Shown: positions 2,617 through 17,906 of the stretch, one piece after another
How the letters are laid out: each line of letters opens with the position of its first letter
Position numbering within the stretch: the first letter of the stretch is position 1
IMG/VR virus record: IMGVR_UViG_3300006802_000738
Coordinates: 1 to 20,941 of that record
Source of the DNA: a virus
DNA: 20,941 nucleotides
Reading direction: 5' to 3' (one strand)
Position numbers and translations under genes: made by a program
Notes under the pieces: model-generated
What the model was told of the DNA's origin: nothing
Seen by the model: the letters and a program-made list of their open reading frames with translations, nothing else
Databases searched by the model: none

Positions 2617-3504
2617 TCAATCTGACAAACGGCTTACAGCGAGTTTAAACATTCGCTGCCAGTTGCGTTTCCAGTGTTGCCAGAAGTCTATGCAGCTCTC
2701 TTGTACTGCATCGACAAGGCCGCTATCCAAAACTGTACGGGCTTTCAGGGCGGCGTCTTCCCACGTGTCGGCCAGCACGAACGGCAGCGTGGTTTCGCCT
2801 CGAAATACGGCGTGCCAATACGACGGATCAATCTGCAGTGATGTGTCATTCCTGAGAACGACAGGGATTACGCCGGCTTCTAAAGCCTCGTAGATCCTGA
2901 ACGAGTCGTTACTGGCTCCACCGCAGGGCGCAGGAGCAAAGATACAGTTGTTTAGGAGTTCGGCGTACCGCTGTGGAGGCAAGTACAACGGGTCGTTGAA
3001 GTTCTTAAAGATGTGAGTTTCGTAGGGTTGAAGCGATTCGAGCTGTTTTAGCGCCTCAGCACGGTCTGTTTTGAGGCTTCCGGCGAATCCCCACATCAAC
3101 TCGCGCTCGCTCGCCTTGCGTTTCGTGCTTGCGTGCGTCTCAAATCCATTTTGCCAGCCCAGGCCGAAGATAAAAGCCTTTGGGTTGTTTAGGACCAATG
3201 GGTGCGCGTAGTTGCGCGCCAGAAAAACGCAGTTTGGGTCGTCTATAAACGGCGTGTCGTGCGCTAAACACTCGTCTGACAGCAAAATGACGCCAAATTT
3301 CACCCCGTGGCGACGAAGTTTGGCGATATACGCGTCTGCCGCTCCCGCATTCGTGCACACGATGCAGTTTTCGGCGACGTCTGGGATTGATCCTGGCTCA
3401 AAAACCGTGATTTCGACGGAATTTGGCGGCAAAAGGCCTAAAAGCCAGTTTCGGCCCCACGGATAGCCGCCATCACCAAACCACAAAAGTGGAATTTGGC
3501 TCAT
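2617..3504 (-). CDS. Exostosin-like glycosyltransferase
   Basis: The 295-aa protein fits the exostosin (GT47-like) fold. The diagnostic part is about residues 180-217: YAELLNNCIFAPAPCGG, then SFRIYEALEAGVIPVVL. That is the nucleotide-sugar-binding segment with the conserved Glu in R-I-Y-E-A-L. The N-terminal half has alternating hydrophobic strands (VILLSDE near 72-78) as in the acceptor domain. There is no signal peptide or membrane anchor, so it would act in the cytoplasm, moving a sugar onto a glycan precursor. Donor and acceptor are unknown. The ATG overlaps the stop of the upstream methyltransferase as ATGA, so the two are translationally coupled. The pair runs against the surrounding + strand genes. 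Family call fairly sure; substrate not. Confidence 0.8.
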   Translation of the reverse strand: MSQIPLLWFGDGGYPWGRNWLLGLLPPNSVEITVFEPGSIPDVAENCIVCTNAGAADAYIAKLRRHGVKFGVILLSDECLAHDTPFIDDPNCVFLARNYAHPLVLNNPKAFIFGLGWQNGFETHASTKRKASERELMWGFAGSLKTDRAEALKQLESLQPYETHIFKNFNDPLYLPPQRYAELLNNCIFAPAPCGGASNDSFRIYEALEAGVIPVVLRNDTSLQIDPSYWHAVFRGETTLPFVLADTWEDAALKARTVLDSGLVDAVQESCIDFWQHWKRNWQRMFKLAVSRLSD

Positions 3505-8234: not shown

Positions 8235-8525
8235 ATGCCGTTTTACTCGTCACACCCGGGGTATGGCCGTTTAGTCAACACGTTGAAAGACGTGCTGGAT
8301 TCGCGGGGTCTTTCTTCCTTCAAGTTGAGCCGTACCTCGGACGTGTCTCCTACGACTGCACGTAAAATTTATAGTGACCCTAGTTATATCCCGTCTCCCG
8401 ATGTGCTCGAAAAAATCTGCATAACACTAGAGATTCAGCCTGGCGATATTTTGCGAATTGGTCCTAAACTGGAAACAACGGTAGCAATGGTGTTAGGTTC
8501 CGGTGTTCTCCCCTCAGGACTTTGA
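8235..8525 (+). CDS. XRE/Cro-type DNA-binding protein, 96 aa
   Basis: It carries a Cro/C1-type helix-turn-helix, close to the HTH_26 group. LKDVLDSRGLSSFKLSRTSD at residues 17-36 and VSPTTARKIYSDPS at 37-50 give helices 2 and 3. IPSPDVLEKICITLEIQPGDIL at 52-73 is the typical last two helices, with the 'L-x-I-x-P-G-D-I-L' ending of the family. A 23-residue tail of unknown role follows. It should bind DNA as a dimer and control transcription. It is the first gene of the 8235-12119 run and overlaps the next gene by 23 bases, so it may regulate the virion operon or itself. Which site it binds is unknown; the palindrome at 6871-6885 is one candidate. Confidence 0.8.
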   Translation: MPFYSSHPGYGRLVNTLKDVLDSRGLSSFKLSRTSDVSPTTARKIYSDPSYIPSPDVLEKICITLEIQPGDILRIGPKLETTVAMVLGSGVLPSGL

Positions 8526-9006
8526 ATTAGCTGCCCGTCTTCTGGGCCTTCCGGTTCCGCAGACTCCCGCCGAATGCGCGGCTGCAGTTCCCATGACTGC
8601 GACCATTCTGCGGTCGTATTACAAGGCACCTTCGCCGATGCCTGGTTTTGAGGGGGATGGAATTCACACCTCCGCCACGCGTTCGTTAAACGCGATGCCC
8701 CGCGTGGCTCAGCCCGAAGCGCGTAACCAACTCGCTCATCGTCTTCAAGCTGGTTTGGTTAGTCGTGATGACGATATCGAAGTTCGGCGTCTCTTAGAGA
8801 TCGTCCTGTCCGATCCGGATACGCGCGAAGCTTTCATGAATTTCATTGGTCAGATTCAGGAGAATTCTCTGGACTCCGGTGAGTTTTATAGTCAGCAGCG
8901 CCCTCTTCAGTTCGATACCCCCGGTATGGGAGGCCAGTACTCGATGCTGAATGCTCCGAGTTCTTCTTCGATTCCTCCCTCTCAGCACTACCAGGCTCTG
9001 AGCTGA
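8503..9006 (+). CDS. Hypothetical protein in virion gene run, 167 aa
   Basis: No family recognised. Helix-rich N-terminus (residues 1-30) with a P-Q-T-P linker, a Pro-rich spacer near 45-50, a helical centre (residues 75-130; the segment EVRRLLEIVLSDPDTREAFMNFIGQI is typical of an amphipathic helical pair), and a disordered Ser/Pro/Gln-rich C-terminus. The GTG start at 8503 lies inside the XRE gene, overlapping it by 23 bases; no ATG gives as long a protein. Its last base is shared with the next ATG (TGATG). A structural or assembly role is inferred from position only. Confidence 0.65.
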   Translation: MFSPQDFELAARLLGLPVPQTPAECAAAVPMTATILRSYYKAPSPMPGFEGDGIHTSATRSLNAMPRVAQPEARNQLAHRLQAGLVSRDDDIEVRRLLEIVLSDPDTREAFMNFIGQIQENSLDSGEFYSQQRPLQFDTPGMGGQYSMLNAPSSSSIPPSQHYQALS

Positions 9007-9239
9007 TGAATACCGTCCAATACCGGCTTAAAGAGAACGACGTTCGTCACGATTCTCCAGAACTTGCGGCGGATTTGTTCTTGAAGTTGTACTTAGAGTC
9101 TAATTTTCCTCAGACTTCTGCGTATCCTTCTAAGCAACAGAAGGAGCAGAAAATTGCAATGCAGCCTAAAACTGATGCGATAGACTACATGAAGAAACCC
9201 CAGTCGGGAACTTCATTCGATCGCCCGGATCGGTACTGA
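9006..9239 (+). CDS. Small hydrophilic protein, 77 aa
   Basis: Highly charged, rich in Lys, Gln and Asp, with no hydrophobic core visible beyond a short LAADLFLKLYLE helix near residues 20-31. The rest appears disordered. Start and stop both overlap the neighbours by one base (TGATG), the signature of translational coupling, and the gene fills its space exactly. No family recognised. In such runs, small disordered proteins may be scaffolds, chaperones or virion linkers; I make no firm claim. Confidence 0.6.
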   Translation: MNTVQYRLKENDVRHDSPELAADLFLKLYLESNFPQTSAYPSKQQKEQKIAMQPKTDAIDYMKKPQSGTSFDRPDRY

Positions 9240-10006
9240 TGTCTCGTTACAGCTATGTAACTCCGGGGCCTAACCAACCGCTAGTCCAGGTTCCGTCTTA
9301 CGCCGCTCAGACCATGGTCGCTCCTGCTATTGCTCCTGTCGCGGCGGCTGCTGCTCCTGCAGCTACGGCAAGCGCTAGTTCGGTTTTAGAAGGTGTTCTT
9401 GCTAATCTATTGGCTAACGTAGCCACTCAGGGTGCGGAGCGTATGCTCTTTCGCCCAGGTGGCGAAGCTCTTGGACCTTCTTCGTATGCTACGGCGGATC
9501 CCTCCGGTCGTAGCAAGTACTTCACAAGCACGACTGAACAGCTTGCAGTCGAACAGTATCTAAACAACGAGCGTTTCCGTCGCGGTCTTTTATCTCTGAT
9601 TCCTGGCGTTCGAGACGCCCTTCCTCCTCTCCCCACGCGGGAAGATATCGTTGGCGGGTATGCCGACGGTCAATTCGTGGGCGGCGCCGCGTTGCGCGAA
9701 GCTCAAGCAGAGAGTCTGACTCGCCGTGAGATTGAGCGTATTCGCGCTGAAAAAGAGTACGAGTATGCTGCTCGCCTAGCCGAAGCTCAAGCCAGTATTC
9801 AGCGTCAGAAAATTCAATCTCTCGCCGATGCCCAGGCCCGCGTGGAGTCCCAGAAAGTTTCTTCGCTTGGCGATGTCCAGCGGCAGCGTCTGCAATCTCA
9901 ATACGGAACTGCCGGGGACTTGCTGGATGCTGCGATCAAAAATATTGCATTCCGCGATAAAATTGAATCAGCAAGTACTCTTAATGAGTTAGCGAGGGCC
10001 GTTTGA
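9239..10006 (+). CDS. Ala-rich coiled-coil protein, probable virion/ejection component, 255 aa
   Basis: Three parts: a Pro/Ala-rich N-terminus with an Ala run near residues 34-46, a middle with the repeat-like phrases YATADPSGRS and FRRGLLSLIPGVRDALPPL, and a long coiled coil at about 155-225. The coiled coil is rich in Ala, Gln and Arg (AQAESLTRREIERIRAEKEY, then QKIQSLADAQARVESQKV). The tandem phrases QSLADAQARVESQK and SSLGDVQRQRLQSQ suggest an internal repeat. This layout is common in internal virion and DNA-ejection proteins of podo- and siphoviruses, but I do not recognise a named family. It shares a 1-base overlap with the previous gene; the next begins two bases after its stop. Confidence 0.6.
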   Translation: MSRYSYVTPGPNQPLVQVPSYAAQTMVAPAIAPVAAAAAPAATASASSVLEGVLANLLANVATQGAERMLFRPGGEALGPSSYATADPSGRSKYFTSTTEQLAVEQYLNNERFRRGLLSLIPGVRDALPPLPTREDIVGGYADGQFVGGAALREAQAESLTRREIERIRAEKEYEYAARLAEAQASIQRQKIQSLADAQARVESQKVSSLGDVQRQRLQSQYGTAGDLLDAAIKNIAFRDKIESASTLNELARAV

Positions 10007-10007
10007 G

Positions 10008-10829
10008 ATGGCGGATAATGACCTTCTTCCAAGACTTGCTGGAGCTATCTTCGGGGCTCCTCTTGGTCCTCTTGGGATTGCTGCTGGCTCTGTTGCTTTC
10101 CCAGCTGCTGCAGGTTTGGCTACCGAGAGCGTTCGGTCTGCCTTACCTCCCAAAGTTGGAACTGTTTTTAGTTATTTAAACGGGAAGCCCTACAAGGTTT
10201 ATGCGGGTCCGGAGTTTGGATCCCAGAGTCTTGAGTCCTACTCGGCGCTGCGCAGAAAAGATCCGACCAAGTTTCCTAAGATAACAGGTGTTATTCAGGC
10301 ACCAGAAAGACCCGCCTCGTCAGCGCCGGCAGTTATGCCTGCTGCGAGTGAATCTCCCAGCGCATCTGCTTCCGCCCCTACTCCCGCTCCGGTCATTGCG
10401 GACGACAGGAGCGCTGGCACCGTGGAACAAATTGGTGCTGAAAACATCGGCGAACAGATGGCTAAACAGCCGTCGGATACACTTCTTGAGCAACTGTATG
10501 GACTGTCTGCTCGTAGCCTGAGTCCTGAGTTTTTAAAGGAGCGTACGGACCAAGCGATTCGTCAGTACGCCGCTACCACGGCTATTACAGAGGCGCTTGG
10601 TGCAGAGAAATCTGAGCAGCGGCGTCGCCGGGAAGTTGAGCTGGCGAAAATTGATCAGTGGACTAAGGCATTCCAGGCTCAAACCTCGGCTAATGCACTA
10701 CAAAATATCGCTGTGAGTCAGGCTGTTATCGCTATGCAGCAGCCAAATGCGAATACGGTCGCTGCGCTGCAGCAAGGAGCCCAGGCTGCGGCTCAAGTTT
10801 TAGGTGTTCCCACTCTGAGGGTTACTTGA
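10008..10829 (+). CDS. Ala/Ser-rich protein, probable virion component, 273 aa
   Basis: The N-terminus (residues 5-40) is a weakly hydrophobic Gly/Ala/Pro segment (FGAPLGPLGIAAGSVAFPAA). It could insert into a membrane or pack in the particle. A Pro/Ser/Ala-rich linker spans about 98-130 (ASASAPTPAPV), and the C-terminal third is helical (residues 175-265), rich in Ala and Gln (LQQGAQAAAQVLGV). It is similar in size and composition to the proteins on both sides, which suggests a paralogous or co-assembling set. No signal peptide with a cleavage site is visible. Function inferred from position and composition only. Confidence 0.6.
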   Translation: MADNDLLPRLAGAIFGAPLGPLGIAAGSVAFPAAAGLATESVRSALPPKVGTVFSYLNGKPYKVYAGPEFGSQSLESYSALRRKDPTKFPKITGVIQAPERPASSAPAVMPAASESPSASASAPTPAPVIADDRSAGTVEQIGAENIGEQMAKQPSDTLLEQLYGLSARSLSPEFLKERTDQAIRQYAATTAITEALGAEKSEQRRRREVELAKIDQWTKAFQAQTSANALQNIAVSQAVIAMQQPNANTVAALQQGAQAAAQVLGVPTLRVT

Positions 10830-10830
10830 T

Positions 10831-11592
10831 ATGCCTCTTCCGTTTGCAGCTGCTCTGGCGATGCCCTCCTTAATTGGCGGAGGGGCTGCCGCAGGAGGCG
10901 CGAGTCTTGCCGGTATTGGCTCGCTTTTAGGTGGATTAGGTAGCGCTGCGGGTGGAATCGGCTCAGTTATTGGCGCTCTTGGCGGTGGCGGCGGAACTGG
11001 TCAGGCCGATTTCGCGAGTATTTACTCTCAGTTGGCTCCTGGTCAGACTGCGTTAACTACGCAGCAGTATGAGTTGGGTGCTCGGATGCAGCCCCTGATT
11101 CAAGCCGAAGGTTTGCTTAGCAAGCTTTACGGAGAGTCCGCGTGGCGCCAGTTCACCGACGCTTCGGAGAAAGATAAGACAGCAGCGGGAACTCTTGCCG
11201 GTATTGCGTCTCAGTATGCTAGTAACGCTTTAGGCGCACAGAATAAAGCGATTACTTCAAACATCGCGCAAGAGACTTTAGGCTACGAGACTGCAGCTAA
11301 TCTTGCTAAAACGTATGCAACTGCTGCATCTAATCTGAAAACTCAGGAACTAACGGGTCTTCAGAGTCTTTTAGCTCCTACGACTACTGCCTTAGCCTCG
11401 GCAGGGCAAACCGCCCAGCAGGGTAAGAATCAACTGGCTTCTAATGTCGGTGCTACCAACTTGGCTATTCGACAGGATCAGGAGCGCACTCGTAACCAGA
11501 TGGCCTTGAAGCGAGCAGACATCGAGGGCCAGTTAGCGCTCAAGCGTTATGGCGCCGGTCTGGCTATGGCTGGGCAGGCACAGTTCGCATGA
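10831..11592 (+). CDS. Gly-rich/coiled-coil protein, possible pore or pilot protein, 253 aa
   Basis: Residues 1-55 form a Gly/Ala/Leu-rich hydrophobic stretch with repeated Gly-Gly pairs (LIGGGAAAGGASLAGIGSLL), the kind seen in membrane-active phage proteins. The rest (60-253) is helical and rich in Ala, Gln, Thr and Leu, including AQNKAITSNIAQETLGYE and a final charged helix (RQDQERTRNQMALKRADIE). That fits a DNA-ejection or tail-tube-type protein that inserts by its N-terminus, but I can name no family. The next gene starts inside its last codon (ATGA). Codons end mostly in T or A, as in neighbouring genes. Confidence 0.6.
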   Translation: MPLPFAAALAMPSLIGGGAAAGGASLAGIGSLLGGLGSAAGGIGSVIGALGGGGGTGQADFASIYSQLAPGQTALTTQQYELGARMQPLIQAEGLLSKLYGESAWRQFTDASEKDKTAAGTLAGIASQYASNALGAQNKAITSNIAQETLGYETAANLAKTYATAASNLKTQELTGLQSLLAPTTTALASAGQTAQQGKNQLASNVGATNLAIRQDQERTRNQMALKRADIEGQLALKRYGAGLAMAGQAQFA

Positions 11593-12119
11593 TTAAAGCC
11601 GTCATCGGCGATTCGACCACGGTTGGAGCGTGGTTGGATTCGCTTGATAAATCGCAGAAAGACGCGTTTGTCTTCTACGCCAAGAACGCTACGAGTGATA
11701 TCGAAGCGTACCTGTATGCACGGTTTCTTAAACCGTCGTACACCGGCAGCATCTCCGATCTCACCGCGTGGATTCAGGAGAAATATCCTAAGGATGACCT
11801 TAGAAAAGTCCTGCTTCGCGAGATCGATTCGTTGCAGCAGGACATTTCGGATGTTCGCGCCATGGTGTCCAATGGCATGTTGGATTCAGCTACGTCAGCT
11901 ACGAAGGTTTCGGCACTTCAAAAAGAACTTCGCAGCCATATTCAAGCTGTGCGCGCCATTTCGGACGGGCTCGATCGCCGCGGTTTGCTGCTGGCAGGAG
12001 CTGACCGTTGTCTGCGGGAACTCATGCAGACGTTTGACGGTCAGCCCAGCATCCAGGCGCTACTTGACGATTCCGCGTTACTCGTGTGGTCGACGTTAGA
12101 GCGCGAAGAGCGGACTTAG
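11589..12119 (+). CDS. Helical hypothetical protein, 176 aa (possible small terminase)
   Basis: Mostly helical and charged. TTVGAWLDSLDKSQKDAFVF at residues 10-29 and the SDLTAWIQEKYP segment near 56-67 could form a DNA-binding head. REIDSLQQDISDVRAMVSNG onward (77 to about 120) looks like a coiled coil, and the last part is globular. Small terminases often combine an N-terminal DNA-binding region with a central oligomerising helix and lie before the large terminase, as here after a minus-strand pair. That is suggestive only, with no named family. The ATG overlaps the previous stop as ATGA. Its TAG overlaps the TAA of the convergent gene at 12116. Confidence 0.55.
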   Translation: MIKAVIGDSTTVGAWLDSLDKSQKDAFVFYAKNATSDIEAYLYARFLKPSYTGSISDLTAWIQEKYPKDDLRKVLLREIDSLQQDISDVRAMVSNGMLDSATSATKVSALQKELRSHIQAVRAISDGLDRRGLLLAGADRCLRELMQTFDGQPSIQALLDDSALLVWSTLEREERT

Positions 12120-16892: not shown

Positions 16893-17117
16893 GTGAGCGA
16901 CGTAGTAAACCATCCGTCTCATTACACCCAGGGGCCTGTCGAGTGTATCGATGCGCTTTATTCGGCGCTTGGTCCAGAGGGCTTTAAACAGTATTGTCGA
17001 GGGGCCTGTTTGAAGTACCTTTGGCGGACCGAGCACAAGAACGGTTTAGAGGACCTTAAAAAGTGCGCGTGGTATTTAGCTCGTCTGATTGAAGAAACTG
17101 AAAAGACTTACGAGTAA
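16893..17117 (+). CDS. DUF3310 protein
   Basis: 74 aa. NHPSHYTQGPVECID at residues 6-20, KYLWR at 41-45 and DLKKCAWYLARLIE at 54-67 match the DUF3310 family of small phage proteins, found near replication or nucleotide genes in many tailed phages and sometimes described as nucleotide kinase-like. The molecular role is not established. Translation starts at GTG 16893, eight bases after the previous stop, preceded by acagg. A stem-loop with a T-rich tail follows the gene. Confidence 0.88.
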   Translation: MSDVVNHPSHYTQGPVECIDALYSALGPEGFKQYCRGACLKYLWRTEHKNGLEDLKKCAWYLARLIEETEKTYE

Positions 17118-17198: not shown

Positions 17199-17426
17199 AT
17201 GGCAGAAATTGCGAAAAAGAAAGACCCCGAGAAGTGGGCGAGGGCTAAGGCTCGGGCAAGGGCAAAGCTCGGAGGCCACTCGGCTCGGGCGATGCAATTA
17301 GCTACAAAATATTATAAAGAATCTGGCGGCACCTACGAAGGTAAGAAGTCCTCTGAGAATCGCCTTCGCCGGTGGGGCAAGGAGGACTGGCAAACCCGCG
17401 AGGAATACGAAAAGAAATCCAAGTAA
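17199..17426 (+). CDS. Small basic protein, like the N-terminal half of DUF5872 proteins, 75 aa
   Basis: Lys/Arg-rich. Its middle reads HSARAMQLATKYYKESGGTY and then GKK followed by LRRWGKEDWQT (residues 27-66). From memory this matches the first part of the DUF5872-type family, in which W-S-A-R-K-A-Q-L-A, a Tyr-Lys-Gly-Gly-Gly-Tyr turn and W-x-x-E-x-W-x-T occur in order. In those proteins a second part (RYLP..AW..LS..E..AT) follows. That part is absent here and appears as a separate gene at 17679. Function unknown; the basic charge suggests DNA or RNA binding or packaging. Not a truncation by frameshift, since a whole other gene lies in between. Confidence 0.75.
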   Translation: MAEIAKKKDPEKWARAKARARAKLGGHSARAMQLATKYYKESGGTYEGKKSSENRLRRWGKEDWQTREEYEKKSK

Positions 17427-17451
17427 ACTAAGTTTATCGCGATTCTGAGTG

Positions 17452-17679
17452 ATGGCTAGCTACACCGCAAAAGATTTAGTCACCGCGTTAACGGGCGAAA
17501 TACCTAGTTATCGCGAAGAGCTGCTCACTTCTAAGGACCTTCTTAAGGAAGTGTATAACGCTAGTGACGATAATGAGCTGCTTGCTCGTATTATCAATCC
17601 GCTAAAGGATGAACTTCTGGCTAAGGCTTACACTGACCGAGCTCTAATCGGCGGTTCGAAGCAAGGTGGTTACGTCTGA
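17452..17679 (+). CDS. Small acidic helical protein, 75 aa
   Basis: Helical and mostly acidic: DLVTALTGEIPSYREELLTS near residues 7-26, then DNELLARIINPLKDELLAKA near 39-58. No family recognised. It lies between the two halves of a DUF5872-like pair and ends in a TGATG overlap with the second half. Starts at the ATG at 17452, 25 bases after the previous stop, although a GTG directly before it is possible. Its acidic character could let it bind the two basic partners; that is inference only. Confidence 0.62.
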   Translation: MASYTAKDLVTALTGEIPSYREELLTSKDLLKEVYNASDDNELLARIINPLKDELLAKAYTDRALIGGSKQGGYV

Positions 17680-17906
17680 TGGCGGACCTCGCTCGCGAAA
17701 AGGGTCGTACAGAACGGTATTTACCGCGTCGAGCGTGGGCGTCGCTTAGCCCGGAAGAGCGTAAAGCTACGGATGAGCGTAAAAAGCGCGCCACGGCTGG
17801 GGATAAACCCGTTAACACGCAGGTCCCTAATACCGAAAAGGCTAGAAAAGCGCGGCGTCTTGCTTCAGAATACGTAAAACGAACCGGTAAGAAATCTGAT
17901 GGCTAA
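17679..17906 (+). CDS. Small basic protein, like the C-terminal half of DUF5872 proteins, 75 aa
   Basis: Residues 11-34 carry TERYLPRRAWASLSPEERKA and T-D, and 50-60 read PNTEKARKARR. From memory these are the second half of DUF5872-type proteins, where RYLP-x-x-A-W-x-x-L-S-x-E-E-x-x-A-T and an N-T-E-K-A-x-x-A-R ending follow the N-terminal motif. Here this half stands alone as its own gene, coupled to the preceding gene by a 1-base TGATG overlap and overlapping the next gene by 8 bases. It would pair with the protein at 17199 if the two halves work as a split complex. Function unknown. Confidence 0.75.
   Translation: MADLAREKGRTERYLPRRAWASLSPEERKATDERKKRATAGDKPVNTQVPNTEKARKARRLASEYVKRTGKKSDG

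Follow-up and report, generated by a model that had tools for sequence, protein, structure and literature searches.

A DUF5872-family protein encoded by two phage genes, and its fused, differently split and permuted relatives

Split phage genes are, as a kind, already known. In Aeh1 nrdA (split by mobE), the large subunit of the T4 topoisomerase and gene 43 of phage 25, one protein is likewise carried by two phage genes; reassembly has been shown for Aeh1 NrdA, and gp43A and gp43B co-purify (PMC2988022). DUF5872 (PF19197 in Pfam) is known as a one-gene form in giant algal viruses, e.g., Chrysochromulina ericina virus CeV-01B, and on bacterial chromosomes, while PHROGs divides fused proteins into an N part (phrog_17747) followed by a C part (phrog_14910), two families that are listed apart and have no function assigned there. 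In the literature searched, DUF5872 was named by a single paper, within a gene list, and the family and its split pattern appear to be undescribed within the searchable literature.

Two genes of one family in a virus record

Here we report on a 20.9-kb virus record (the whole stretch is called the window below) with genes for large terminase, dCMP deaminase and glycosyltransferase. A first-pass annotation had delimited three small genes in it, and their limits were confirmed:

Gene A, 17199-17426, + strand: 75 aa, N-terminal part of a DUF5872-family protein
Gene B, 17452-17679, + strand: 75-aa acidic protein
Gene C, 17679-17906, + strand: 75 aa, C-terminal (RYLP) part of a DUF5872-family protein

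The same annotation had assigned the two motif sets of the family to different genes, and both were found where it had put them: SAR..QLA, GGTY and W-x4-W-x-T in gene A, and RYLP..AW..LS and PNTEKA in gene C. Gene A consists of a helical unit and the W-x4-W-x-T element, followed by a conserved REEYEK tail, and gene C begins with a conserved MADLAREKGRTE leader. Both products are basic, with a net charge of +11 each and a pI of 10.1 (A) and 10.6 (C); that of gene B, for which a GTG at 17449 offers an alternative start one residue longer, is acidic, as had been noted (net charge -3, pI 4.8). The neat overlaps described between neighbouring genes hold for B and C, which share one base (TGATG), and for C and the next gene, which share 8 bases (ATG at 17899; the C stop ends at 17906), but not for A and B, which are separated by a gap of about 22-25 bases. 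A DUF3310 (nucleotide-kinase-associated) gene lies directly upstream of A (window 16893-17117). Window 8235-12119, flanked by the dCMP deaminase region and that of the terminase, is occupied by a run of genes without a PHROGs match at E 0.001, which are possibly divergent virion genes.

A profile check against DUF5872, proposed in the same annotation, succeeded in part. Neither A nor C alone matched Pfam, and the A+C concatenate scored 19.3 bits against PF19197 (E 0.0018, model 3-113 of 116), below the curated cut-off of 27.5 bits. In profile-profile comparison, by contrast, the A-type profile matched columns 4-77 of 138 of a DUF5872-like reference profile (hhalign 99.4%, E 6e-22), and the C-type profile matched columns 82-132 (98.1%, E 1.3e-13). 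The reference was built from six chromosomal one-gene proteins (L254, L256, L311, L313, L272 and L289), all of which reach the 27.5-bit cut-off, L254 and L311 scoring at or below it once a longer stretch is given. A and C match consecutive, non-overlapping columns of one family, and comparison of the A and C profiles revealed no similarity between them (1.8%). These consecutive matches make the homology of both genes to DUF5872 clear, the sub-cut-off Pfam score notwithstanding, and it is on profile-profile homology that we place A and C in the family. Gene C also matched PHROG 14910 (E 1.4e-6).

Homologues carrying both parts in order on one gene, as the first-pass annotation had described for the family, include gp97 of S-CRES1, L315 and many others, on phage contigs as well as bacterial chromosomes. 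A fold search with the model of a fused protein returned the DUF5872 protein of Chrysochromulina ericina virus (probability 1.00, E 1.7e-3, TM about 0.46-0.48); in the PDB, no relative was found by sequence or by fold.

Recurrence of the split and other forms of the family

Classification of the fetched loci covered at least 489 distinct sequences or pairs: at least 228 fused, at least 128 split as in the window (window-type), at least 128 split at another site, at least 4 permuted and 1 unclear, all counts coming from query-biased scans and being lower bounds, not frequencies. What PF19197 describes as one polypeptide is two genes both in the window and in at least 128 distinct pairs. The N half precedes the C half on one strand in all splits classified, and only three window-type N halves are without a partner, all of them less than 200 bases from a contig end. 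The isolated cyanophage S-EIV1 shows the same split, its A-type and C-type genes being separated by a further small gene. Assembly error as the source of the arrangement is ruled out by the recurrence of at least 128 pairs, their constant order, the confinement of orphans to contig ends and the S-EIV1 isolate. As with Aeh1 NrdA, a one-gene homologue exists (S-CRES1 gp97) and the halves are conserved together. The A/C arrangement is, almost certainly, a DUF5872-family protein that was split into two genes long ago and has been conserved in that state.

In S-EIV1, AHV82147 (L003:5451-5762) is annotated from an internal ATG, and the frame runs on upstream with YSKPELRERIKDRI. Since this upstream stretch encodes the first helix of the DUF5872 family, the annotated start is probably misplaced. 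Separate origins of the window and S-EIV1 splits were hinted at by a tree, but an AU test is compatible with one origin (p 0.55), which we prefer because the C halves also cluster and tail and leader are alike. Formal rejection also fails for a common origin of every split (p 0.077), but two origins, one for the window-type and one for the marine splits, are favoured, as the cut sites differ.

Marine phages (HMO-2011 type, pelagiphages) cut the protein elsewhere than the window does: after GGGY, with the W-x4-W-x-T element sitting on the second gene. This cut was found in HTVC033P, HTVC035P, Lederberg, CRP-9, CRP-13 and MEP402. Two genes lie between the halves in HTVC033P, and those of HMO-2011 (L170:295-717 and 2471-2719) are about 1.75 kb apart; a methanesulfonate monooxygenase subunit gene sits between them. 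Within the fetched stretches, 17 N and 11 C halves of the marine type have no partner, not all of them near a contig end.

SAR11 bacteria carry a circular permutant, with the RYLP part first and the WSARKAQ/GGGY part after it in one frame:

L325, L327, L328 and L331, about 2950-3393: permutant in four SAR11 single-cell loci
L653-L665: SAR11 permutant loci

The permutant is a single open frame in 13 of 197 genomes of the SAR11 family, and the halves stand adjacent in normal order in 4 of the 197. It is nested in the marine split group in both trees, many forks of which are unresolved, and this position is what a split-then-rejoin route predicts. TspO, called by motif, directly follows the permutant in 9 of the 13 genomes, and genes for CFA synthase, DUF3833 and a short-chain dehydrogenase lie near that of L328. 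The singlet-oxygen regulon of Rhodobacter sphaeroides includes CfaS, and R. capsulatus shows induction of tspO (PMC7074977); a stress link of the SAR11 permutant is a lead only.

Structural units, reassembly and competing explanations

Couplings between positions were estimated by a mean-field method from 488 sequences and set against 40 tree-based simulations in which sites evolve independently, used in place of a plain shuffle control that ignores relatedness. Coupling of the W-x4-W-x-T element to the RYLP part was 3.96 against a null of 1.52 (sd 0.13; 0/40 simulations), an excess whose size counts for more than its exact value given the simplicity of the simulation, and it equals in strength that within either part. 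Strong couplings were also present within the N part and within the RYLP part, and coupling of the N part to the W-x4-W-x-T element or to the RYLP part was not above the null in the 40 simulations. An AlphaFold2 model of fused L315 from 133 sequences, in an alignment that left out L468 and six fused proteins from the last scan's loci, had a pLDDT of 88.7 and a pTM of 0.64; single-sequence prediction of the same protein was poor (pLDDT 62.4). Model confidence falls to about 69 at residues 51-60, the location of the marine cut. The loop in which the window-type cut falls is bordered by two-residue strands, at 67-68 and at 87-88, which would pair across it. Coevolution and the model together indicate two units, a predicted N-terminal helical pair and a second that unites the W-x4-W-x-T element with the RYLP part; the marine cut would separate these units and the window-type cut would open the second.

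Window-type pairs retain the core positions that exceed 90% conservation among fused and marine forms, and W54, W59 and T61 are present in every pair. The loop positions G64 and S67 are lost, and the C-terminal G100, K101, Q102 and R118 are retained in only 35-43%. A new tail on A, e.g., REEYEK or KDEYEK, occurs in 94%, and C bears a new conserved leader, e.g., MADLAREKGRTE or MADKAIQKGYTK.

At the level of sequence, comparison of these forms shows gene fission of one ancestral protein. We propose that A and C are the halves of an ancestral DUF5872-family protein, parted by an old fission that phages have kept; the fission would lie in a loop inside the second unit and leave A holding the W-x4-W-x-T piece needed by C. 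The two products probably associate in trans, rebuilding the second unit, as would be expected where the cut opens that unit, the core is kept and the new ends are conserved. The reassembled protein would bind nucleic acid, which late in infection might be phage DNA, and gene B would be an operon passenger outside the split mechanism. Taken as one explanation, fission, association, nucleic-acid binding and a passenger B seem to us likely.

Halves of common descent could instead act today as two independent small proteins for which contact is needless. The marine cut, parting two units without detectable coupling, implies an N unit that probably folds alone and is consistent with such independence, as are the marine-type halves without a partner in the fetched locus. 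A pairing test, which scored pairs by couplings learned from other relatives, lends no support to association either: within each split clade, where the coupled sites vary little, true A-C pairs were not preferred over shuffled ones, and an apparent signal over all window-type pairs (0/2000 shuffles) was discarded because it disappeared within clades. Against independence, window-type A retains its W-x4-W-x-T element though this is coupled with C, W54, W59 and T61 are never lost, and window-type orphans occur only at contig ends. Because the window-type cut opens the second structural unit, we favour association and consider independent action of the halves rather unlikely.

The first-pass annotation had noted the middle gene between the halves; a part for it in the split is not borne out by the relatives, most of which have B elsewhere or not at all. 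Of the 128 window-type pairs, 43 carry a match to a B profile between the halves, 13 carry it before A and 2 after C; it was not found in 70, nor in fused or marine loci, absences that partly reflect reach, as the fetched flanks differ. B has no significant match in Pfam or PHROGs, and its relatives are inconsistently acidic (mean net charge about +0.6 in stop-to-stop frames). The middle gene of S-EIV1 seemed at first to be a relative, but was not picked up by a profile that had been grown from B only. We judge B to be a common neighbour, an optional passenger outside the split. That B is instead a mobile element or homing endonuclease whose insertion split the gene, like mobE in Aeh1 nrdA (PMC2988022), would suit the presence of a separating gene in both the window and S-EIV1, and an inserted element may later have been lost; yet a 75-aa protein without an endonuclease match, variable in position and distinct by profile from the S-EIV1 middle gene, in a family where many halves are directly adjacent, makes such an insertion improbable.

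Erroneous sequencing, gene decay or a programmed frameshift giving one product, the simple form of which the first-pass annotation had rightly set aside, can be dismissed as extremely improbable, for although TAATG or ATGA overlaps do occur in some adjacent pairs, there are at least 128 distinct conserved pairs and an isolate genome, the reading phase between halves varies, 71 of the 128 pairs have more than 150 bases and even whole genes between the halves, and the new tail and leader are conserved.

Function and comparison with known systems

Several chromosomal DUF5872-like proteins have extensions:

L289:3001-3642: C-terminal Rho_N domain (45 bits, above cut-off)
L304:2911-3627: C-terminal Rho_N domain (32.5 bits, above cut-off)
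L256:2881-3768: tail resembling the HC2 histone-like (histone-H1-like) protein (25.1 bits, below the cut-off of 40)

Weaker Rho_N matches were present in L254, L286 and L303. These fused extensions and the strong positive charge of the protein suggest nucleic-acid binding by the family, towards which we lean slightly. In several phages, lysis or packaging genes stand close to the DUF5872 gene, neighbours that would suit a late role; on bacterial chromosomes its neighbours include no constant partner, and none of the solved structures or fold matches points to a function.

On the broadest reading, DUF5872 would be a small nucleic-acid binder opened in at least two places, between its units in marine phages and within the second unit in S-EIV1-like phages and the relatives of the window, and joined again on SAR11 chromosomes with its parts exchanged, its function kept throughout, and we regard the chances of this as evenly balanced. 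If true, it would constitute a natural fission and circular-permutation series in a protein roughly 130 residues long. A natural series of fused, twice differently split and permuted forms is rare, and this one lets one ask directly what keeps the halves of a split protein attached to each other and by what route circular permutants originate. Two PHROGs families and one Pfam family, each with function unassigned, become one family that is widespread in bacterial and algal viruses as well as on bacterial chromosomes, with nucleic-acid binding as the first functional lead for DUF5872.

The one-gene PF19197 forms share the core motifs and the consecutive profile match with A and C; in contrast to them, the window has two genes, its halves and their concatenate fall below the Pfam cut-off, and a new tail and leader stand in place of the loop at the cut. 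The boundary between phrog_17747 and phrog_14910 coincides with the marine cut, whereas the window cut lies after the W-x4-W-x-T element. The split proteins of Aeh1, T4 and phage 25 are large enzymes, two of them involving homing endonucleases, while A and C make up a small basic protein with no endonuclease; reassembly is here something we infer, and DUF5872, unlike those three, is cut at two sites and has a relative in permuted form.
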